Assembly: GCA_003024175.1 (NCBI GenBank)
Contig: MDYQ01000110.1
Coordinates: 25,979 to 89,978 of the forward strand
Direction of reading: 5' to 3'
DNA from: Planoprotostelium fungivorum
Taxonomy: Eukaryota; Evosea; Variosea; Cavosteliida; Cavosteliaceae
DNA: 64,000 nt
The notes under the pieces were generated by a model. The model did not search any database. It was not told the DNA's origin and saw only the letters and a list, made by a program, of their open reading frames with translations. Made by a program: the position numbers and the translations under genes. Shown piece after piece: positions 2,854 through 29,153 of the stretch (position 1 is its first letter; every line of letters begins with the position of its first letter).

Positions 2854-3590
2854 TCACTTTGACTTTATGTTCTCTTGTATTCTTCGTAGACTTGCTTCAT
2901 CTTCTCGGATAAAAAGTGAAACTCTCCCTCTTCTCTCTCCTCCACTCTCGACACCGTCCATGACAAGTAGAACTGCACCTTCTTCACCGTCACAAACATC
3001 TTCTTCTTATAAGCTCTATCTGCCAACCCTCATCAGACACCTCCACACGATGACACGCCCATCATGTTCACCTCGGTTCGTCTCATCTTGATGAGCCCTG
3101 TCGATGATGGACGCGAGGTGAGAAAGGGCAGCGGTGATGTATCTCCCGTTATCTAACAGACTCGACGTGTCTCTGACAGCTTCGATTCTCATGACACCTG
3201 CACCTGGTGCGTTGTTCACCTGTCTCTCATTCAATCTCAACAACATTATAGACTCTATATTGTACGTGTGGTCGATCTTCTATATGGATTGTGTATCTAT
3301 ATTGTATTTATTGTATTTTATTTATTCACTCACTCTGACTGCAGATTCAACGACGGAATGGATGGCAACAGATGCCGACTCGTGATTGTCTGTAGAGGAC
3401 AATACGGTGGACACCCCCAACACATCATCTGCAACATCTCTAGAGTCCATTTCTTCTGGCTCACCGTTGACACACCTCATGACAAATGCATACGTGTATC
3501 TGATGGAGTCAAGGTGTTGTCTAAATGTTCATCATGTCATCTCATCAGGATACAATAAATCGATGAGATTGAAGAAGAGGAGTTTAGATG
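2854..3590 (-). CDS. Uncharacterised protein, multi-exon
   Basis: I do not recognise this gene. On the minus strand a coherent reading runs through RYTYAFVMRCVNGEPEE (near 3500) and MLLRLNERQVNNAPGAGV (from 3246). It continues through LDNGRYITAALSHLASIIDRAHQD. A GTGAAC...GGCAG intron leads to RAYKKKMFVTVKKVQFYL and a TGA at 2856-2854. The C-terminal exon is basic and helical. No start codon could be fixed upstream of about 3560. The ZNHIT2-like stop lies just upstream at 3621 in the same direction. Exon structure is provisional. Confidence 0.4.
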
Positions 3591-16543: not shown

Positions 16544-16832
16544 ACAAGATAAAATTCTTTTTGTGATTTATCCTCTCATTTCATCGTAGCATGTATGCAT
16601 GCAGGTGATCCAGATATGAGTCATCACATCCAGGACGTATCGCGTCAAAACAGAATGCATCGGCTATAAACAAGAATCAAAATAGATGCGACAATATTTC
16701 CTTCAGATGGACATCTTAATTGTACATCGTTGTTCATCTTGATGCTTCTTGCAAACTTTTGGGTCGAATTTCTATCGGACCAAATATTTGAACCCCACTA
16801 AAAATAACCTGAATCTGAAATTCAACACAAAG

Positions 16833-19206
16833 ATGCTCAGCACAGGGATCGGGGGACAGACTATCTATAATCGTAAAGTCAACGAGGGAGCGTGGACGCA
16901 GACGGTCTACAATCTGATCAGCGAGGCCAAGTATCAGGATGCCGTCAATCTCTTGGAACATCAGCTGACTGCCTTCCCTCTAAATCGAGCTGCTCTCTCG
17001 ATATTGGCGTGGTGTTACTACTATCTGCAAGATTTCGGTCTTGCTGCGGAGAAGTATGAAAAATTGGTCAGGGCTTACCCTGAAGTCACAGAGTACAAAG
17101 TCTTATTCATCCAAACATTGTATAAATCAGGAAACTATCAAGAAGCACAGCAGGCGGCTCTCGCATTGGAGGACTCTCAGTATGCACCGAGAGTGAGCGA
17201 TCGGCATTCGTGACGATTCGCTCATTCGATGTAGGTCTTAAAGATGCAAGCTTATGTACAATACGAACAGAACGATTCCGCAGGAGCAAAAACATTCTTA
17301 GACCAGTGTTCACCCACAGACGGTGATGTGATAATGAACGTCGCATGTCTCTTATTCAGGGTGATGAGATCGATCACCATCCGTTCATTCGTGACCATCC
17401 ACAGGAAAAGAAATACGAAGATGCACGACAGAAGTTCACCGATGCGTTAAACACATACGGATTCCGACCTTCCATCGCGTACAACATCGCCTTGTGTTAC
17501 TACAATCTGAAACAGTACTCCCTGGCTCGAAAATACATCATCGAGATCATCGACAAGGGAATCAAAGAACATCCGGAGCTGGGCATCGGGAGCTCATCTG
17601 AACCAGGATCAGAGGTCCGTAGTGTGGGAAATACGCTCACTCTCAAAGAGACAGCATTGGTGGAAGCGTTCAATCTGAAGGCAGCCATCGAGTACGAGAT
17701 GAAGAACTGTGAGCACCGCGATGATCGTGTATGGAATCTCATCAATACAGACGAGGCCGCTAAAGAGTCACTGAATGACATGCCACCCCGTTTGGAGGCA
17801 GAATTGGATCCAGTCACTCTCCACAACGTCGCTCTCATGCACATGGATGACAACCCGAACGAGCACCTTCCCAAGTTGAATTTCCTCCTCAGTGCCCCCT
17901 CCAGCCCTCCACAGACATTTGCCAATCTCCTCTTGGTCTACTGCAGGTTCCAATACTTTGAAATTGCTGCAGACGTTCTCGCAGAGAACTCGCACTTGAC
18001 GTACACTCTATTAGACCCGGTGAGTCGACCGTTTCTGTTGATCATCGTGAACGTCCTCTCACCTTCACCAGAGTCTCTACGCATTCTTGGATGCTCTCAT
18101 CATGCAGCAGACGTCACCCGAGGAGGCTTATCGTAAATTCGACGAGCTGGCTCAGAAGCACATCGAAATCCTTCGCAAGCTGACGAAACAAGTTCAAGAC
18201 GCCCACAACAACCGCGACGAAGTCCAAACGAAGGCGGCCATGAAAGAGTTTGACGAAGCCCTCGAGAGGTACATCCCAGTTCTGATGGGCCAGGCGAAGA
18301 TCTATTGGGACATGGAGAACTACGCACAAGTTGGCAAGCTCTTCCGCACTACGATGGACTTTTGCAACGACCATGACGTGTGGAAGTTGAACGTGGCTCA
18401 CGTCTTCTTCATGCAGGAGGGTCGATTCAAGGATGCCATTCGATATTACGAGCCCATCGTGAAGAAGCACTTGGACAACGTGAGTGGGGGAAGAGGGAGA
18501 GGAATTGACCAGTGACAGTTGCTCAACGTGCAGGCCATCGTGTTGGCGAACCTCTGTGTGTCTTACATCATGACGAGTCAGAATGACGAGGCGGAGGAGC
18601 TGATGAGAAAGATCGAGAAAGAGGAAGAGAGGTGACAATCGTGGCTCATCGCAAGTCTCATGAAGGTTTCAGAGTGGCATACCAAGATCCAGAGAAGAAG
18701 ACGTACCACTTGTGCATCGTCAACTTGGTCATCGGTACCCTGTATTGTGCGAAACAAGTGAGCATCTGGATGAGGTGATGAAGATGATCTAACCGATTCA
18801 GAATTTTGAGTTTGGTATCGTGCGAACGATGAAGAGTCTGGAACCATTCCAGAAGAAGGTGAGGACGACTGATGAGATCATGTGATCTGATGTCTTCAGT
18901 TGGACACGGATACATGGTTCTACGCCAAACGTTGTTTCCTCTTTTTGATCGAGAATCTGGTCAAGCAGGTGAGCCAACACCCGTCGCGATGAGAATCTGA
19001 TCGACCTTCAGATGATCATCATCAAGGACACGATATACAAGGACATCCTGCAATTCTTAGATGCTTGTGACAAACATGGAAAGAATATTCCAACCGTGAT
19101 CTCTCATCTTCCAGAAGAGATGGGCGGTGGTCTGATGGAAAACAACACAGTCAGCTACGAGGCCAGAAGAATCAAGGCCGTCTTCCTGAAATTAAGAGAT
19201 TGGTGA
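16833..19206 (+). CDS. IFT70: Intraflagellar transport protein 70 (TTC30/DYF-1)
   Basis: TPR protein of IFT complex B, needed to build cilia. Start ATG 16833-16835: MLSTGIGGQTIYNRKVNEGA. TPR helices begin at once: EAKYQDAVNLLEHQLTAFP, LNRAALSILAWCYYYLQDFG, LAAEKYEKLVRAYPEVTEYK and LYKSGNYQEAQQAAL. Later exons carry YEDARQKFTDALNTYGF, IAYNIALCYYNLKQYSLARK, the family-specific TLKETALVEAFNLKAAIEY, DMPPRLEAELDPVTLHNVAL and YAKRCFLFLIENLVKQ-like residues. The C-terminus is YEARRIKAVFLKLRDW with TGA at 19204. About ten short introns interrupt it. It is the best evidence here that the organism is ciliated. Confidence 0.95.
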
Positions 19207-22380: not shown

Positions 22381-22599
22381 AACATCGGCACTGTCCATCG
22401 TTCATACACTGACCGAACCCATCACTGACAAGTGTGAATTCTTCAGATATGGAAGCGTCTCACCAAGTGGGGTTGAATTCGAAGCAGGATCCAGTGGTGA
22501 CCATAGTCAGTCGTGAGATATGTGAGCCAGGTGGATGATATCTCTTCTCGTGCATTTCAAAACAACATCATCATCACCTGAAAACTCATCTCTCCTCAG

Positions 22600-22850
22600 G
22601 ATGTTGGCAGGATAACCCAAGAGACAGACCTTCCTTCAAAGACATCTGCCACTACCTCGGTGTGGGTTCGATCATGCCGCAGGGCAATTTGACTCCCCTC
22701 TCCACTCCCGAAAACTCTGCCGGTATGTCTTTCCACGACGTAACACCCAGTGCGAGTGGACTCTCCTTTGATCTAGATTCTTTGGGTGGCGACCAAGCCC
22801 GCAGATATGAATGGATACCTCCAGTTTCAAACTCGTTGGGGACTGGGTGA
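22600..22850 (+). pseudogene. Protein-kinase C-terminal tail fragment
   Basis: After a 3' splice-like CTCCTCAG at 22592-22599, an exon reads CWQDNPRDRPSFKDICHYLG, the end of a tyrosine-kinase-like catalytic domain (CW..P..RPSF..I). It continues as a Ser/Thr/Pro-rich tail (TPLSTPENSAGMS) to TGA at 22848. No catalytic HRD, DFG or glycine loop was found upstream to 22200, where the membrane-protein gene occupies the other strand. It may be a relic, or the last exon of a gene whose other exons I missed. Confidence 0.45.
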
Positions 22851-23000
22851 GAAGAGAGAGAAAGAGAAGAGTGACGTGGAGCAGGGGACAAGTGAAGGAT
22901 AGAGAAGAAGTCATTTTGACGGAAGAAGAGTTGACTCAATACTCGGCTGTCGAGATGAGAAATATGGAATAGAATAGAAGACACACTTTTGATGTTACAT

Positions 23001-23945
23001 TTATTTCGATACGGGAACCCTTCGAATGCTTCTGATCGTGTGTGCCTCGTGTTGTATGTTCGTCTGTTTCAGTGCCAGAAAGTCAACCATGTACTCCCAC
23101 TGCCCCGACTTGACTGCCCTCACGTCTGTCCCTCTTCTGTTCTGCAGGTAGTCCAGATAGATCTCTTCTACTGTGTCTGATGCCTTCACGTCGTAGTTCT
23201 TCCATCCGTTGTGCTCGTACTGCCACAGGTGATCGTATTTCAGACCGGCTGCGGCAGGTGCGACTGACTTCTCAAGAGTCCCCTCTCTCTCTGCTCTCTT
23301 TTGGTTCAAATCGATCTCCGGGAGGTCCAGTGTGGTTGTATCGTAGCTCTTCCAACCGCTGTGATCGTACAGCCACACGGTGACCCTCCTGACGGCAGGT
23401 GTCTTCTCTTCCTTCTTCTCTTCTGTGGACTGGTCGGGCTCGCTGCGGGAGATATCCTCTCTTCTGGCTCTCTTTCGCGGCACTTGTGCCTTCTCTACTG
23501 TCTCCTTCTTGGACACTCTGGCTCTTCTCACGGCGGGTGTCTTCTTCGTGGGCAGATCGTCGGCCTCGCTTTTGGAGGAGCTGTCGACCTCTCTCCTCGC
23601 TCTCTTTCGGGGGGCTTGTACCTTCTTCTCAACCTCCCTCTTGTTCGTTTTGGCCTTGGTCAAGATGAAAGATTGGCGAATCTGCTTGATTCTCTTCTGC
23701 TTCACGGCTTCTAGCACGGCCTTTCGGATGCATTGGGCGGCGCGACGTTGATCTTTGAGATCGTAGTTGAGTGACACCCACTTGACCAGAGCTGGAACGG
23801 AGGTAGGATGTGCTCTAGAGCTCTTCCTGTTCAGTTGATGAAGAGCGGGTAGGATGAGCTTCGAATAGGCGGGCTTCTTGGCTGGCTTGTTCTCTTTCTC
23901 GGTAACAATGTTTCCTGATGCTGTCCTTAACATGGCTGATGGCAT
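23001..23945 (-). CDS. Linker-histone (H15) domain fused to a WWE domain
   Basis: An uninterrupted 314-residue frame from ATG 23945-23943 (MPSAMLRTASGNIVTEK) to TAA at 23001. Residues 24-98 form a histone H1/H5-type winged helix: PAYSKLILPALHQLNRKSS, VPALVKWVSLNY, QCIRKAVLEAVKQKRIKQ, SFILTKAK. Residues 99-187 are basic, with two copies of PRKRARRE, probable nuclear signals, and two of TPAVRR. Residues 190-212 look like half a WWE repeat (VWLYDHSGWKSYD). Residues 235-310 are a full WWE domain: LWQYEHNGWKNYD, VEEIYLDYL, SGQWEYMVDFLALKQTN, IRSIRRVP. WWE domains bind ADP-ribose polymers, so a chromatin protein that reads poly-ADP-ribose is the obvious hypothesis. An upstream in-frame ATG at 24095 is less likely. 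Confidence 0.85.
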   Translation of the reverse strand: MPSAMLRTASGNIVTEKENKPAKKPAYSKLILPALHQLNRKSSRAHPTSVPALVKWVSLNYDLKDQRRAAQCIRKAVLEAVKQKRIKQIRQSFILTKAKTNKREVEKKVQAPRKRARREVDSSSKSEADDLPTKKTPAVRRARVSKKETVEKAQVPRKRARREDISRSEPDQSTEEKKEEKTPAVRRVTVWLYDHSGWKSYDTTTLDLPEIDLNQKRAEREGTLEKSVAPAAAGLKYDHLWQYEHNGWKNYDVKASDTVEEIYLDYLQNRRGTDVRAVKSGQWEYMVDFLALKQTNIQHEAHTIRSIRRVPVSK

Positions 23946-24258
23946 CTTGATTGTTGTTTGTGTTGTGTGAATGGATGTTTGGGTGAAAGTGAGTTTGTGT
24001 CTTTCCACATCGTGTGTTCCGATCTTTTCTCCAAACTCTTTTCCGCGAACTCCATCTACAATGACATGTGTCGTGTACATCATGAAGAACATCAACGACC
24101 TCTAAGAGAGGCTTCCTTGTCGTCCATCTTCTAATAACATATCGTAATTTATTCTTTCAAGCCGCATGAACCTCTCTTCGATGAATTCCCAACCCCTCCA
24201 AATTGATGAACCTCCTCGAACATTCTTCGCACATCGTGACGTCTCTCCTGCATCATCA

Positions 24259-25484
24259 TCAGCCCAGTCTCCATCTCTTCTCTTCCCACCCCGAGCTCTT
24301 CTCTCCAACCGACTTATCGGGCGAAGGCTGATGAGCTTGTCTAGATGGGGCCTCCACGTGTCCGGCGGCCTCTTTAAATCCTTCCATTGGCTTCGGCTTG
24401 CTGCTGTCTTTCAACTCCATGACTCGATCTCCAAATTTAAACGTTGCGTCTCTGACTGCCTGTGCGAAGCTCTCCTCCGTCCTGCCCTCTTCAGACTTTC
24501 ATCCATCTACAACCCGCCGCGCGCGAACCTGAAAAACGCGAACGCGTAAGAGGTAGATGCATCCCTGTTTCTCTTCTTCACGACCCTCTTGATGTCTGTA
24601 TATTTTTGTCTCATGGCAGCTTCTAGTTCTTTTTCGGGAAGGTCTGCTGGAACATCACTGATCCACACTCGTCTCTGCATGGCCTTCAACTCCTTCTCTT
24701 CTGATCTTTCCTTCTCATTCTTCGTGGGGGCTACCATGCTGTGACCTTCTACGTTTCAGAACACGATGATGGATGTCTGAGATGGAAGATCGATGTTTCT
24801 GTACCTGGAAATTGGACGTCGGTGTGTGATGATCTCGCGATGTGAGAATAGAAGAGGACTTGATGAGCTAAAGTTTTGTCTTGTTCGTTATGAGAGAGAC
24901 CGAGGATCTGTATGACGTGACGTTTGTATTTGGCTTCGTGGATGTAAGTGGAGAAGTCGTGATCTCCAGAGATGACGACGAGAGCAGGTGCTGAGCAATT
25001 GATGATACCGTTTGTGATGAGATGATCGGCTGCATCTGATGGATTCTATGTCAATGACACAGTCGGATTTTGATTGTACAATGGAAAGATGATGGTTTCA
25101 TGATTGGTGAGCTCACTCGGTTTTTTTGCCGCCACTTGGCTGATGTGAACTCCCTTTTGATGATTCAATAATTTGGGACAATAACACCCTCACCAGCGTA
25201 TTCAGTTTCTTCTGCACGTGAAGAGGTAACTTGCCAATGTTGATGGGGACCGTCCAGCGAGAAGATGCGATCGGTGATTGAGGAAATCTCTCTTTGAGGC
25301 ACCGTTCGATTTGATGTCTCAATTCGTCATAAAGACGTTGAATAGCGTCCACATCTCTGGGAATGAGACAGTTTTCCGCATCCCACCATACTTCGTATGT
25401 GATGGGTTTCATCTGAGGATGGTGAGAAGAAATTGAAATAAGGGGACTCACATCGTCAAAGTTGTTTGAATATAGAGAAGTCAT
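24259..25484 (-). CDS. NYN-domain RNA nuclease-like protein with RRM
   Basis: Start ATG 25484-25482: MTSLYSNNFDD, joined after a 40-nt intron to MKPITYEVWWDAENCLIPRD. The WWDAENCLIP motif is the N-terminal acidic strand of NYN/PIN-like nucleases; SAPALVVISGDHDFSTYIHE (about 24960) carries the second acidic site. The following RRM-like exon has RRVWISDVPADLPEKELEAA and STSYAFAFFRF. A basic/polar tail ends in EEKRWRLG and TGA at 24261-24259. NYN followed by RRM recalls MARF1/limkain b1, which cleaves RNA. The nuclease fold is well supported; the RRM is weaker. Confidence 0.65.
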
Positions 25485-25594
25485 GGAGTGGGTGTTGTCT
25501 GATGGGTCAAACTGACACCGAAAAGAAAACCGCACACTACAATGATTGCAGTCACGTGACCAATTTTTCTTCGCGACTGGATCGTCTCATCGTT

Positions 25595-27052
25595 ATGTCT
25601 TCTGCGTCCATCGTCAATGAAGTCCCTGAAATACCAGAGGACGTTCTATACATAGTATTCACTCATTGCTTTCGAACTTATAGACACCCTCTTCAACCAG
25701 CAAGACAATGGGCTCGTCTGCGCTCTGTCAATCACACGTGGAAAATTGCAGCAGATAGGTCAGTCTTTCGATGCCGTATCATCTCATTCGTCTCAGGGTC
25801 ATCCACCTCTTTGAATTATGGACGTGGTTGTTCTCCCATTGCGAAAAGGAATACATAGACACGACCAGGTGACAAAATCGACATAGCATTCACAATGCTC
25901 AACATCACAAGATTCCTGCTGCAACATCCCAGTGTGGAGCCAGGGTGTGATTATAACCTTGCTATTCGATCATGTGTCATTCGTGGCCTCGACAACACCC
26001 TCTCCATCCTCTTAGATGACAAACGAGCCGATCCCACCAGCTGTGGATTAGAGATGGATGAGGCAGCTCGTCTCGGACATATACGCATCGTTCAGAGTCT
26101 ATTGAAGGATAGAAGGTATCACCCTCACATCTCTGTCCTCATGTGACCCTGATTGACAGATGCATCGGTCCTCAGTGCCTCGTGGCTGCCGCAGGAGCCG
26201 GTCATGCCAGCATTGTCTCCATGCTCTTACGCGACAAACGTTTCAGCCAACACGATGAGGCCCTTCGAACTGCTTGCGAGTTGGGTGATCCTCGCATCGT
26301 CAACTTGATCCTGCAAGATGGTGTAGCTGATCCGGACTTCACTCATGCAAAAACATTCTCTCCCCGAAAAGTAATCTTCTTCTCCGTTCATGCGATCAAT
26401 ACCGTCATATCATCCCACGCTTGACATCATCATGAGAAAACATCAGATGTACGTATTATAGAAACATCACGTCGACTGCATCATCATCATCACAAACGTC
26501 TAAACAAACGAAAGGGAGAGAGACCGAAAGGATACACTCCATTGATGTACGCAGTGACATCTGGCAGCACCGAAGTCATGAACATCTTGATGCGCGATCC
26601 CCGCGTTCATCTCTGTGAGACGATTTCACATCGACTTGATGATCTCATCTTCTCAGCCGGTCACGAGCTTCTCCTCGCTTCCGAACTGGGGCACTGCAAC
26701 GTCGCACGACTCTTGTTGAAAGACACGAGAATCGATCCCACCTTCTTAAACAGTCTCGCTCTGGTCGTTGCGGCAAAGAAGAATCACGCGGGTGAAGAGA
26801 TCACACGCAATGCGATGATGTGACTCACTCGCATCCAGATGTCGTCAAGTTGTTGTTAGAAGATGGGAGGGCGGATCCATCGGCGAACGCTTCAGAGTGT
26901 GTCTCTGTTGCATCTGATTCGAACGTGATGAGGTGATGCAGACCGAGTGAAACTCGTTGACTCTGTGAAGGTTGTTTGTAAAAGATGGACGGGTGCAGAT
27001 GACATCATCTCACGTCAAGACGGTCTCCAGAAACATGAGGAGAAAGAAATGA
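25595..27052 (+). CDS. F-box-like protein with ankyrin repeats
   Basis: Start ATG 25595-25597: MSSASIVNEVPEIPEDVLYI. An F-box-like helix pair (IPEDVLYIVFTHCF, ARLRSVNHTWKIAADRSVFR) is followed by ankyrin repeats of the LLxDxRxDP type. These include FLLQHPSVEPGCDYNLAIRS, LLDDKRADPTSCGLEMDEAA, RLGHIRIVQSLLKDRR, AGHASIVSMLLRDKRF, GDPRIVNLILQDGVADPDF, YAVTSGSTEVMNILMRDPRV, LGHCNVARLLLKDTRIDPTF and VVKLLLEDGRADPSANASE. The last exon (LFVKDGRVQ) ends at TGA 27050. Short introns separate repeats. It may be a substrate adaptor for an SCF ubiquitin ligase. Proteins of this style are common in large protist families. Confidence 0.65.
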
Positions 27053-27165
27053 ACGAGTGACGTCGATGATCGTTGTCTTTATCGGTTCTCATTACTTTGC
27101 GCGATGCATCGTCCACGCTTGCGCACGTGTCTTCTATACAGTACAAATGTCTGTGCATTCTGTCA

Positions 27166-27324
27166 TCATCCAGGGAACGCTCCAGCTGCCTTCGCTAAGA
27201 GGGCCGCCACGCATGCTATCATGACGAAGGCTCCGACGTAATCGATGCCGGTCGACTGCATTCAATCAGTCTCTCGCCTCGTCCTCTCCCTTCTCACGTG
27301 CGATCTTGTCACTTCGTAATCCAT
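27166..27324 (-). CDS. Candidate 33-residue single-span membrane protein
   Basis: ATG 27324-27322 encodes MDYE, then an intron (GTGACAAG...GAATGCAG), then STGIDYVGAFVMIACVAALL followed by AKAAGAFPG and TGA at 27168-27166. The one hydrophobic segment fits a membrane helix. The splice sites match local style. No homologue is recognised; tiny subunits of OST or TOM complexes have this size. It is missed by ordinary length cut-offs. Confidence 0.4.
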
Positions 27325-28099: not shown

Positions 28100-29153
28100 C
28101 TAGTTCTCCTTTTTGGTGGGTCTCTTAGAATAAGTCTTGACGAAGAAGTTGATGAAGAGGATGAGGAAAGACAACAGAACGGATTGTCCAAAGATCCAAG
28201 AGAAGGGGTGTCCTGATGATGTGTCATTCGAAATGTAAGACGATGATGATGTGATGGATGATCATACGAACGTGTCTCACCTGCACACTTTCTCCCATCG
28301 TGGAAGATGAACCAGAATCCGATGAAGTTGGCGATGAGATCGCAGACGAACTGAATGATCTGGAATTGAGTGATGTATCTCTTCCACCAAGGAGAGTAAC
28401 CGACGGAACTAAGAGCGTAATAGAAGTACATCGGCACGTGGACGGCGGCATTGGCAGAGATGGCCATCCATTGGACTCCAGTCTCGTGCTCCAGCATGAC
28501 GAACGTTAAGACTGGTAGAGATCAGATGATGACTATCTACGAGTGAACTCACTGAGCGTGATGCAGTGGTGGTAGACGTGAAGGAAGATGATGGGTCTCT
28601 TCTTCAAGACGATGATGACAGTGTCCAGGAGTTCGTATGACTTGGAGAGAAAGAAGATGTAGAACCACCAGACCTGCTTTCCTTTGGCCAATCTATGCTC
28701 GGGATCGCAGAAGTAGAGGAGTGTCTTATCTTGAGTCTCTGACAGATAGATTCGCACCAACTCGTAGATGATGCCAAGTAACATAGCCAGGGACCAGATG
28801 CATAAGATGCTATTGTGAAGCGGGACGACACCGCTGAGCTTGAAGGCCTCACGATTGGCCATAAACTTCTTCAGGGCAAAGATAATGACCAGGTAGGTTC
28901 CGACAGCGCTCAGACAGTAAGTCCAATTGGCCAGCGGCAGATCGCCTCTGTACTTGAAATCATCGCTGTATTCAGAAAAGATCCGGTTGATTGCCTGATT
29001 CACAGTGAGCTGAGGACTCTCCTCCCTCCTACACCATGACATACCTGCATCGTCCCCTGACCGTTTGTTTGTAAATAAATCAACGGCGGAAGAATTTCGG
29101 AAAAACAAAAGATCCACACGAACAGAGAATAAAATCAGAACTCTCTTGTTCAT
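28100..29153 (-). CDS. Very-long-chain fatty acid elongase (ELO family)
   Basis: ER 3-ketoacyl-CoA synthase of the ELOVL type. ATG 29153-29151: [19 protein letters not shown]. After a short intron: [73 protein letters not shown] and [22 protein letters not shown] is the invariant ELO histidine box; [10 protein letters not shown] is the D.xDT-type motif and KK.P the conserved turn. Then [35 protein letters not shown] and the last exon [19 protein letters not shown], with C-terminal KRPTKKEN, a dilysine-like ER signal. Stop TAG at 28102-28100. Confidence 0.93.

Follow-up and report, generated by a model that had tools for sequence, protein, structure and literature searches.

Linker histones and poly-ADP-ribose (PAR) share chromatin, and in the systems known to us they meet through separate proteins. 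Here we analysed a 64,000-nucleotide stretch of Planoprotostelium fungivorum DNA (the window), in which one gene joins a linker-histone (GH1) domain to a WWE domain, and the locus raises the question of what such a protein could be. If a linker histone does carry its own PAR pocket, the link becomes directly testable within one protein. Our reading, which we consider on balance probable, is that the gene encodes a nuclear linker-histone-type chromatin protein with a built-in ADP-ribose reader, steered by PAR.

The fusion is a confirmed observation. The minus-strand frame runs through 314 codons without a stop (Table 1), and in a Pfam scan of its product Linker_histone (PF00538) scored 25.0 bits against a gathering cut-off of 22.4 and WWE (PF02825) 46.2 bits against 21.1; PF00538 reached 27.8 bits at the gene in the genome search. 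The initial annotation had taken both domains to be genuine and their fusion to be independent of any guess about splicing, and had proposed a profile search for the two families as a check. All of this holds, with both domains above threshold and spanned by one frame. A WWE domain arising by chance is ruled out by the score, and two genes read as one by the stop-free frame together with six copies in the same domain order. The whole protein has a pI of 10.05, and no ligase or PARP domain was found in it by the Pfam scan.

Table 1 Features of the H1-WWE gene and the DNA it shares with other contigs (window positions).
Feature	Position	Strand	Description
H1-WWE CDS	23001..23945	-	Single exon, 314 aa plus stop; ATG common to C384 and C68
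Linker-histone (GH1) winged helix, aa 24-90	23676..23876	-	PF00538; profile to H1.0/H5; fold
WWE domain, aa 240-309	23019..23228	-	PF02825; alignment to TRIP12, DTX1, PARP11, ZAP
Half-WWE, aa 189-222	23280..23381	-	First part of WWE, without the later pocket Tyr, Gln and Arg
Basic linker, aa 101-188	23382..23645	-	Carries duplicated PRKRARRE...KTPAVRR segment
DNA common to dispersed copies	22996..24067	-	Homology stops at both ends
Segment found also on C238 at 96-98%	22571..27244	.	Extent within the DNA compared, may run further; ~730 nt (23252-23983) absent from C238

The linker-histone side is supported by profile and fold comparisons. While a single-sequence search of solved structures with the window protein gave no match, a profile of eight H1-domain regions from the same genome retrieved human H1.0 at 8.5e-8, followed by H5 and yeast H1; an earlier three-sequence profile had reached HP1BP3, yeast H1, and H1.0 at 0.004-0.1. 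The H1-domain model (pLDDT 72.7) has the GH1 winged-helix fold; linker histones match it best, other winged helices follow closely, and none of the Foldseek matches in the PDB had an E-value below 0.001. For the full-length model, which is weak (mean pLDDT 45.7), the best Foldseek match was again a linker histone, 5nl0_Z (probability 0.98, E 0.15). The GH1 domain of the copy on contig C207, searched alone against solved structures, matched a lipoprotein (E 0.2) and HP1BP3 (E 0.47), neither significantly. Net charge of the GH1 domain is +15 in the window protein, +10 in the C37 copy, and +4 in C207.

The residues with which H1 contacts nucleosomes appear to be kept only in part. With H5 numbering, as we assume it, placed on the profile alignment, the window protein keeps Lys52, and both Arg73 and Arg94 are replaced (R94 by Ile); the equivalents of K40 and R42 presumably fall inside a loop with shifted Arg/Lys residues. 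The compaction residues of X. laevis H1.0 are K40, R42, K52, and R94 (PMC11500106). The same source describes medusavirus H1 and Acanthamoeba H1.1 as having GH1-like folds and no DNA binding, so that a GH1 fold by itself is no proof of nucleosome binding, and the clandestinovirus linker histone is suspected likewise not to bind DNA (PMC12724268). The Acanthamoeba and medusavirus result is our main warning against presuming nucleosome binding here. Both of the proteins concerned are listed as acidic, with a pI of about 5, whereas the window protein is basic.

A three-sequence WWE profile retrieved PARP11, DTX1, ZAP, and TRIP12 at 0.015-0.063. In WWE pockets, a Gln bonds to adenine, a Trp (Tyr in RNF146) stacks on that base, and a Tyr and an Arg sit at the proximal phosphate (PMC11269756). 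Alignment of the window protein to TRIP12, DTX1, and PARP11 places Q294 at the adenine, Y243 at the stacking position (a Tyr, as in RNF146), and Y285 and R305 at the phosphate, and all four pocket positions of ADP-ribose-binding WWE domains are conserved. Because these residues are conserved, the link that the initial annotation proposed between linker DNA and ADP-ribose signalling is plausible. Strong binding of single iso-ADP-ribose is particular to RNF146 (PMC10877565), so the affinity of the window domain is not predictable; many E3 ligases and PARPs carry a WWE domain, and strong PAR binding is not obligatory among such domains (PMC11269756, PMC10877565). In the full-length model, weak as it is, the order of strands and helices in the C-terminal part agrees with a WWE domain; no WWE chain was among the Foldseek matches listed for that model, which is uninformative given its weakness there.

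The half-WWE reported before the full domain is present, and what it represents can be narrowed. Within the window CDS, the half-WWE has a DNA self-match of 86% over 43 nt, and CDS positions 320-358 and 452-490, in the linker, match at 85% over 39 nt. The half-WWE is missing from C384, C68, C37, C48, and C207, leaving the window copy as the only one of six intact copies to have it. Judged by these repeats, the half-WWE and the linker preceding it are the product of a duplication within the window copy. A second working reader was considered and rejected on this origin and on the missing later Tyr, Gln, and Arg; as these pocket residues are lacking, such a role is unlikely.

The gene belongs to a family. 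Profile searches over 36.9 Mb in 471 contigs gave at least 12 WWE and at least 9 linker-histone matches, both counts being lower bounds. Six intact H1-WWE genes were found, on C46 (the window), C384, C68, C37, C48, and C207, all in the order GH1-basic linker-WWE. The other WWE matches are a remnant on C238 and five loci (C212, C468, C109, C164, C434) beside which no linker-histone match was found in the genome searches. Both domains exceeded Pfam cut-offs in four of the five H1-WWE proteins scanned; the H1 domain of C68 fell just short (22.3 against 22.4) and scored 24.6 in the genome search, where C48, outside the Pfam scan, gave 30.8 bits for H1 and 52 bits for WWE. The C37 protein is 223 aa long, intronless, and 98% identical to that of C48, and the two may be alleles or recent duplicates. 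Compared with C48, C37 contains 1983 nt of extra DNA starting about 8 bases past the H1-WWE stop (L036:3530-5512 versus L037 near 1819).

The C207 copy is larger. In a gene model that we built from sequence alone, its exons are 30083-29311, 29268-28869, 28828-28701, and 28658 to a stop near 28538. The three introns between them measure 42, 40, and 42 nt and are bounded by GT and AG. The predicted protein has 473 aa, a pI of 10.1, 26% Lys+Arg, and ten S/T-P-K/R type sites, and passes Pfam for both Linker_histone (31.3 bits) and WWE (50.4 bits). With its SPKK-type basic tails, C207 has the appearance of a canonical H1. PF00538 retrieved no plain H1; its nine matches are the six H1-WWE genes and three H1 domains with a vWA or vWA-like part. 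A genome search with the C207 GH1 domain recovered itself and a weak match on C278 (E 0.47); it missed C46, C384, C68, C37, and C48 and is too insensitive to argue absence. An intron-split H1 could escape either search.

The vWA-bearing loci are a second linker-histone fusion, in which a von Willebrand A-type region comes after GH1. It is seen on C21 and C434, and C152 has a weaker version that may be degenerate (L039:3289-4425, minus; L040:3077-4204, plus; L041:2891-3598, minus; along the gene's strand). VWA_4 scored 30.5 against a cut-off of 27.0 in C21; the C434 assignment is by resemblance to C21, and the likeness of C152, which has no Pfam vWA match, is by eye. A TxSGxI motif at the N-terminus is common to C152 and the short H1-WWE proteins.

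Within the H1-WWE family, pairwise identity among C46, C37, and C207 is 65-66% in the WWE domain (window versus C207, 65%) and lower in the H1 domain (C46-C37 43%, C46-C207 24%). Against a profile of these WWE domains, the five other WWE loci reached at best 12.8 bits, with no match for C468, in domains that introns may cut. The high WWE identity inside the family, set against the low score outside it, favours a single ancient fusion.

The substitution pattern points to selection on both domains. Among C46, C384, and C68, dN/dS was 0.13-0.20 for H1 (aa 24-100), 0.04-0.06 for WWE, and 0.21-0.79 for the linker; ratios between deep groups were not used, as synonymous change there is saturated or nearly so. 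Synonymous and replacement changes per site were compared with one-sided Fisher tests on rounded counts, the three pairs among these copies not being independent. C46 and C384 differ by 8/56 versus 5/175 in H1 (p 0.0035) and 16/51 versus 3/195 in WWE (p 8e-10), and C46 and C68 by 14/55 versus 7/176 (p 1.4e-5) and 4/52 versus 1/194 (p 0.008), respectively; C384-C68 gave p 0.0014 for H1, 9e-8 for WWE, and 0.54 for the linker. The linker has a synonymous excess in the two remaining pairs of the three (C46-C384 p 0.02, C46-C68 p 0.002). Depletion of replacements is not limited to the domains, but it is weaker in the linker. The C37-C48 pair agrees (H1 with the N-terminus p 0.0004, WWE p 1e-5, linker p 1). 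H1-WWE is a real, selected, multi-copy family.

How the short copies spread can be read in part from their edges. Homology among C46, C384, and C68 extends from about 120 nt 5' of the ATG to a point 5 nt past the stop for C384 and about 30 nt past it for C68, between unrelated flanks. These limits of homology are transcript-like (window 22996-24067; L034, L035). Intronless single-gene units, against the three introns of C207, suggest that the dispersed short copies are retrocopies; no poly(A) tail or target-site repeats were seen at them by eye. On C238, flanks like those of the window gene are retained, and about 730 nt of the gene is missing, with only a WWE fragment left. This fragment (L038 about 3171-3500) is nearest C68, matching it at 252 of 254 nt, inside the window-like flanks; its alignment to C46 is slightly longer, with 299 of 313 nt identical. 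The pattern hints at gene conversion between copies or allelic mixing, and the loss of the H1 part from so close a copy indicates that single copies are dispensable.

Machinery for PAR turnover is present in the genome. PARP catalytic matches lie on seven contigs, five of which also have regulatory matches (C448, C133, C468, C35, C40), which answers the earlier suggestion to look for PARP genes. PARG matches were found on four contigs and macro-domain matches on six, and the WWE of C468 is near PARP domains. The contig of the C68 copy also bears macro-domain and PARP-like matches (C68:45923-46427 and C68:56391-57097). Around the window gene, ten frames between 16.7 and 30 kb were scanned; four exceeded the cut-off, all with eukaryotic families (TPR, SH3, ELO, and ubiquitin-conjugating enzyme), and none of the ten matched a viral family. 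The other six comprise a peroxin-13 just under the cut-off (21.6 versus 22.3), one sub-threshold TPR, and four without a match. As far as the surroundings were read, the gene appears to sit in ordinary nuclear DNA and not in a viral insertion. The TPR protein (window 16743-18515, plus strand) resembles intraflagellar transport protein IFT70/TTC30; were it that protein, cilia genes would be present in the organism.

The pairing of the two domains is not new. The initial annotation knew of no named family with this architecture; H1-WWE proteins had in fact been reported in clandestinovirus and the pithovirus-related LCPAC304 (Talbert et al. 2022, PMC9145170). Within the literature searched, the term H1-WWE was found in that article only. 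The clandestinovirus protein is listed elsewhere as linker histone H1/H5, in an article whose text does not contain 'WWE' (PMC8383183). In BFVD, our H1-domain model found its best viral match in clandestinovirus, a 226-aa protein labelled 'bifunctional linker histone H1/H5' (Foldseek E 9.9e-4, 16% identity). No other viral match fell under 0.001, although unrelated phage proteins followed at no great distance. The clandestinovirus entry is presumably the WWE-bearing protein of PMC9145170, an identity that we infer. Two strict-pattern scans of IMG/VR contigs and a search of a phage collection returned no relatives, although distant ones could be missed. The pairing is thus known in viruses; the literature searched, which covered few subscription journals, yielded no report of a nuclear H1-WWE family, nor of an H1 of canonical appearance that bears a WWE domain.

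These observations suggest how the window protein might work. GH1 and the basic linker would bind nucleosomal or linker DNA, and the WWE domain would bind ADP-ribose units of PARP-made PAR, so that PARylated chromatin, for example at DNA breaks, could attract or retain the protein. Clearance of the polymer by PARG would then release the protein. Recruitment would be akin to that of macroH2A1.1, through a different reader fold. The short intronless copies, including the window gene, would be dispersed derivatives of a family shared with the intron-bearing C207.

Other readings compete with this one. The protein could be an adaptor tethered to chromatin, with its WWE domain docking on a ubiquitin-ligase or PARP partner, not on the polymer, and with GH1 serving as a DNA anchor without compaction. 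The loss of the H5 Arg73 and Arg94 equivalents from the window copy, by the numbering assumed here, would fit such a role, as would the known occurrence of WWE domains in E3 ligases and PARPs (PMC11269756) and the doubt expressed in PMC9145170 that H1-WWE proteins condense chromatin. We nevertheless consider an adaptor unlikely, given four pocket positions as in ligand-bound WWE domains and a stacking residue that is aromatic in six of six copies (Tyr in C46, C68, and C207; Phe in C384, C37, and C48). That the short intronless genes came from a giant virus resembling clandestinovirus, as viral tools or relics, with C207 as the host gene, appears improbable. The clandestinovirus linker histone is the best viral match and presumably the WWE protein of PMC9145170, and the intronless C37 product (223 aa) is close to it in length (226 aa). 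Against this, the window and C207 WWE domains are 65% identical, identity to the viral H1 model is 16%, four of ten neighbouring frames match eukaryotic families and none a viral one, and the strict IMG/VR patterns and phage collection, which could miss distant relatives, yielded none.

More doubtful still is the view that the window copy has no function and is a duplicate in decay. Its duplication of linker and half-WWE is unique to it, its sister copy C238 has lost the H1 part, and divergence among copies is uneven along the gene; but the 314-codon frame is intact, the duplicated insertion preserved it, and replacements are depleted in both domains relative to C384 and C68. The PAR-steered linker-histone reading can also be carried further, tentatively: C207 could be both the canonical principal H1 and a PAR reader, in an organism where no single-domain H1 exists and PAR acts directly on the bulk linker histone. 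The short copies would then be specialised versions, and the H1-WWE proteins of giant viruses would stem from genes captured from amoebae.

Among known systems, canonical H1/H5 resemble the window protein in having a GH1 domain, recognised by both Pfam and profile, a winged-helix fold, and basic tails; H1-WWE differs in its extra WWE, in contact residues kept only in part, and in DNA-binding and compaction roles that are putative. RNF146, HUWE1, TRIP12, DTX1, and PARP11 have in common with it a WWE domain with adenine and phosphate pocket residues kept, whereas the window protein carries GH1 in place of a detectable ligase or PARP domain. The giant-virus proteins likewise combine an H1-like domain and a WWE in one protein; they are viral, whereas the six intact genes here are nuclear, and one of them has introns together with tails like those of canonical H1. 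Any kinship between the two sets is putative, with an H1-domain fold match (16% identity) as the link observed. If our reading is true, the family would be a cellular counterpart to these unexplained proteins of amoebal giant viruses. The closest working analogy, not kinship, is macroH2A1.1, an H2A variant whose macrodomain binds PAR and which is recruited by PAR (PMC9859207). On our reading both are histones with a built-in ADP-ribose reader, macroH2A1.1 joining a core histone to a macro fold and H1-WWE a linker histone to a WWE fold, and the latter would then represent a second, independent route to macroH2A's job.
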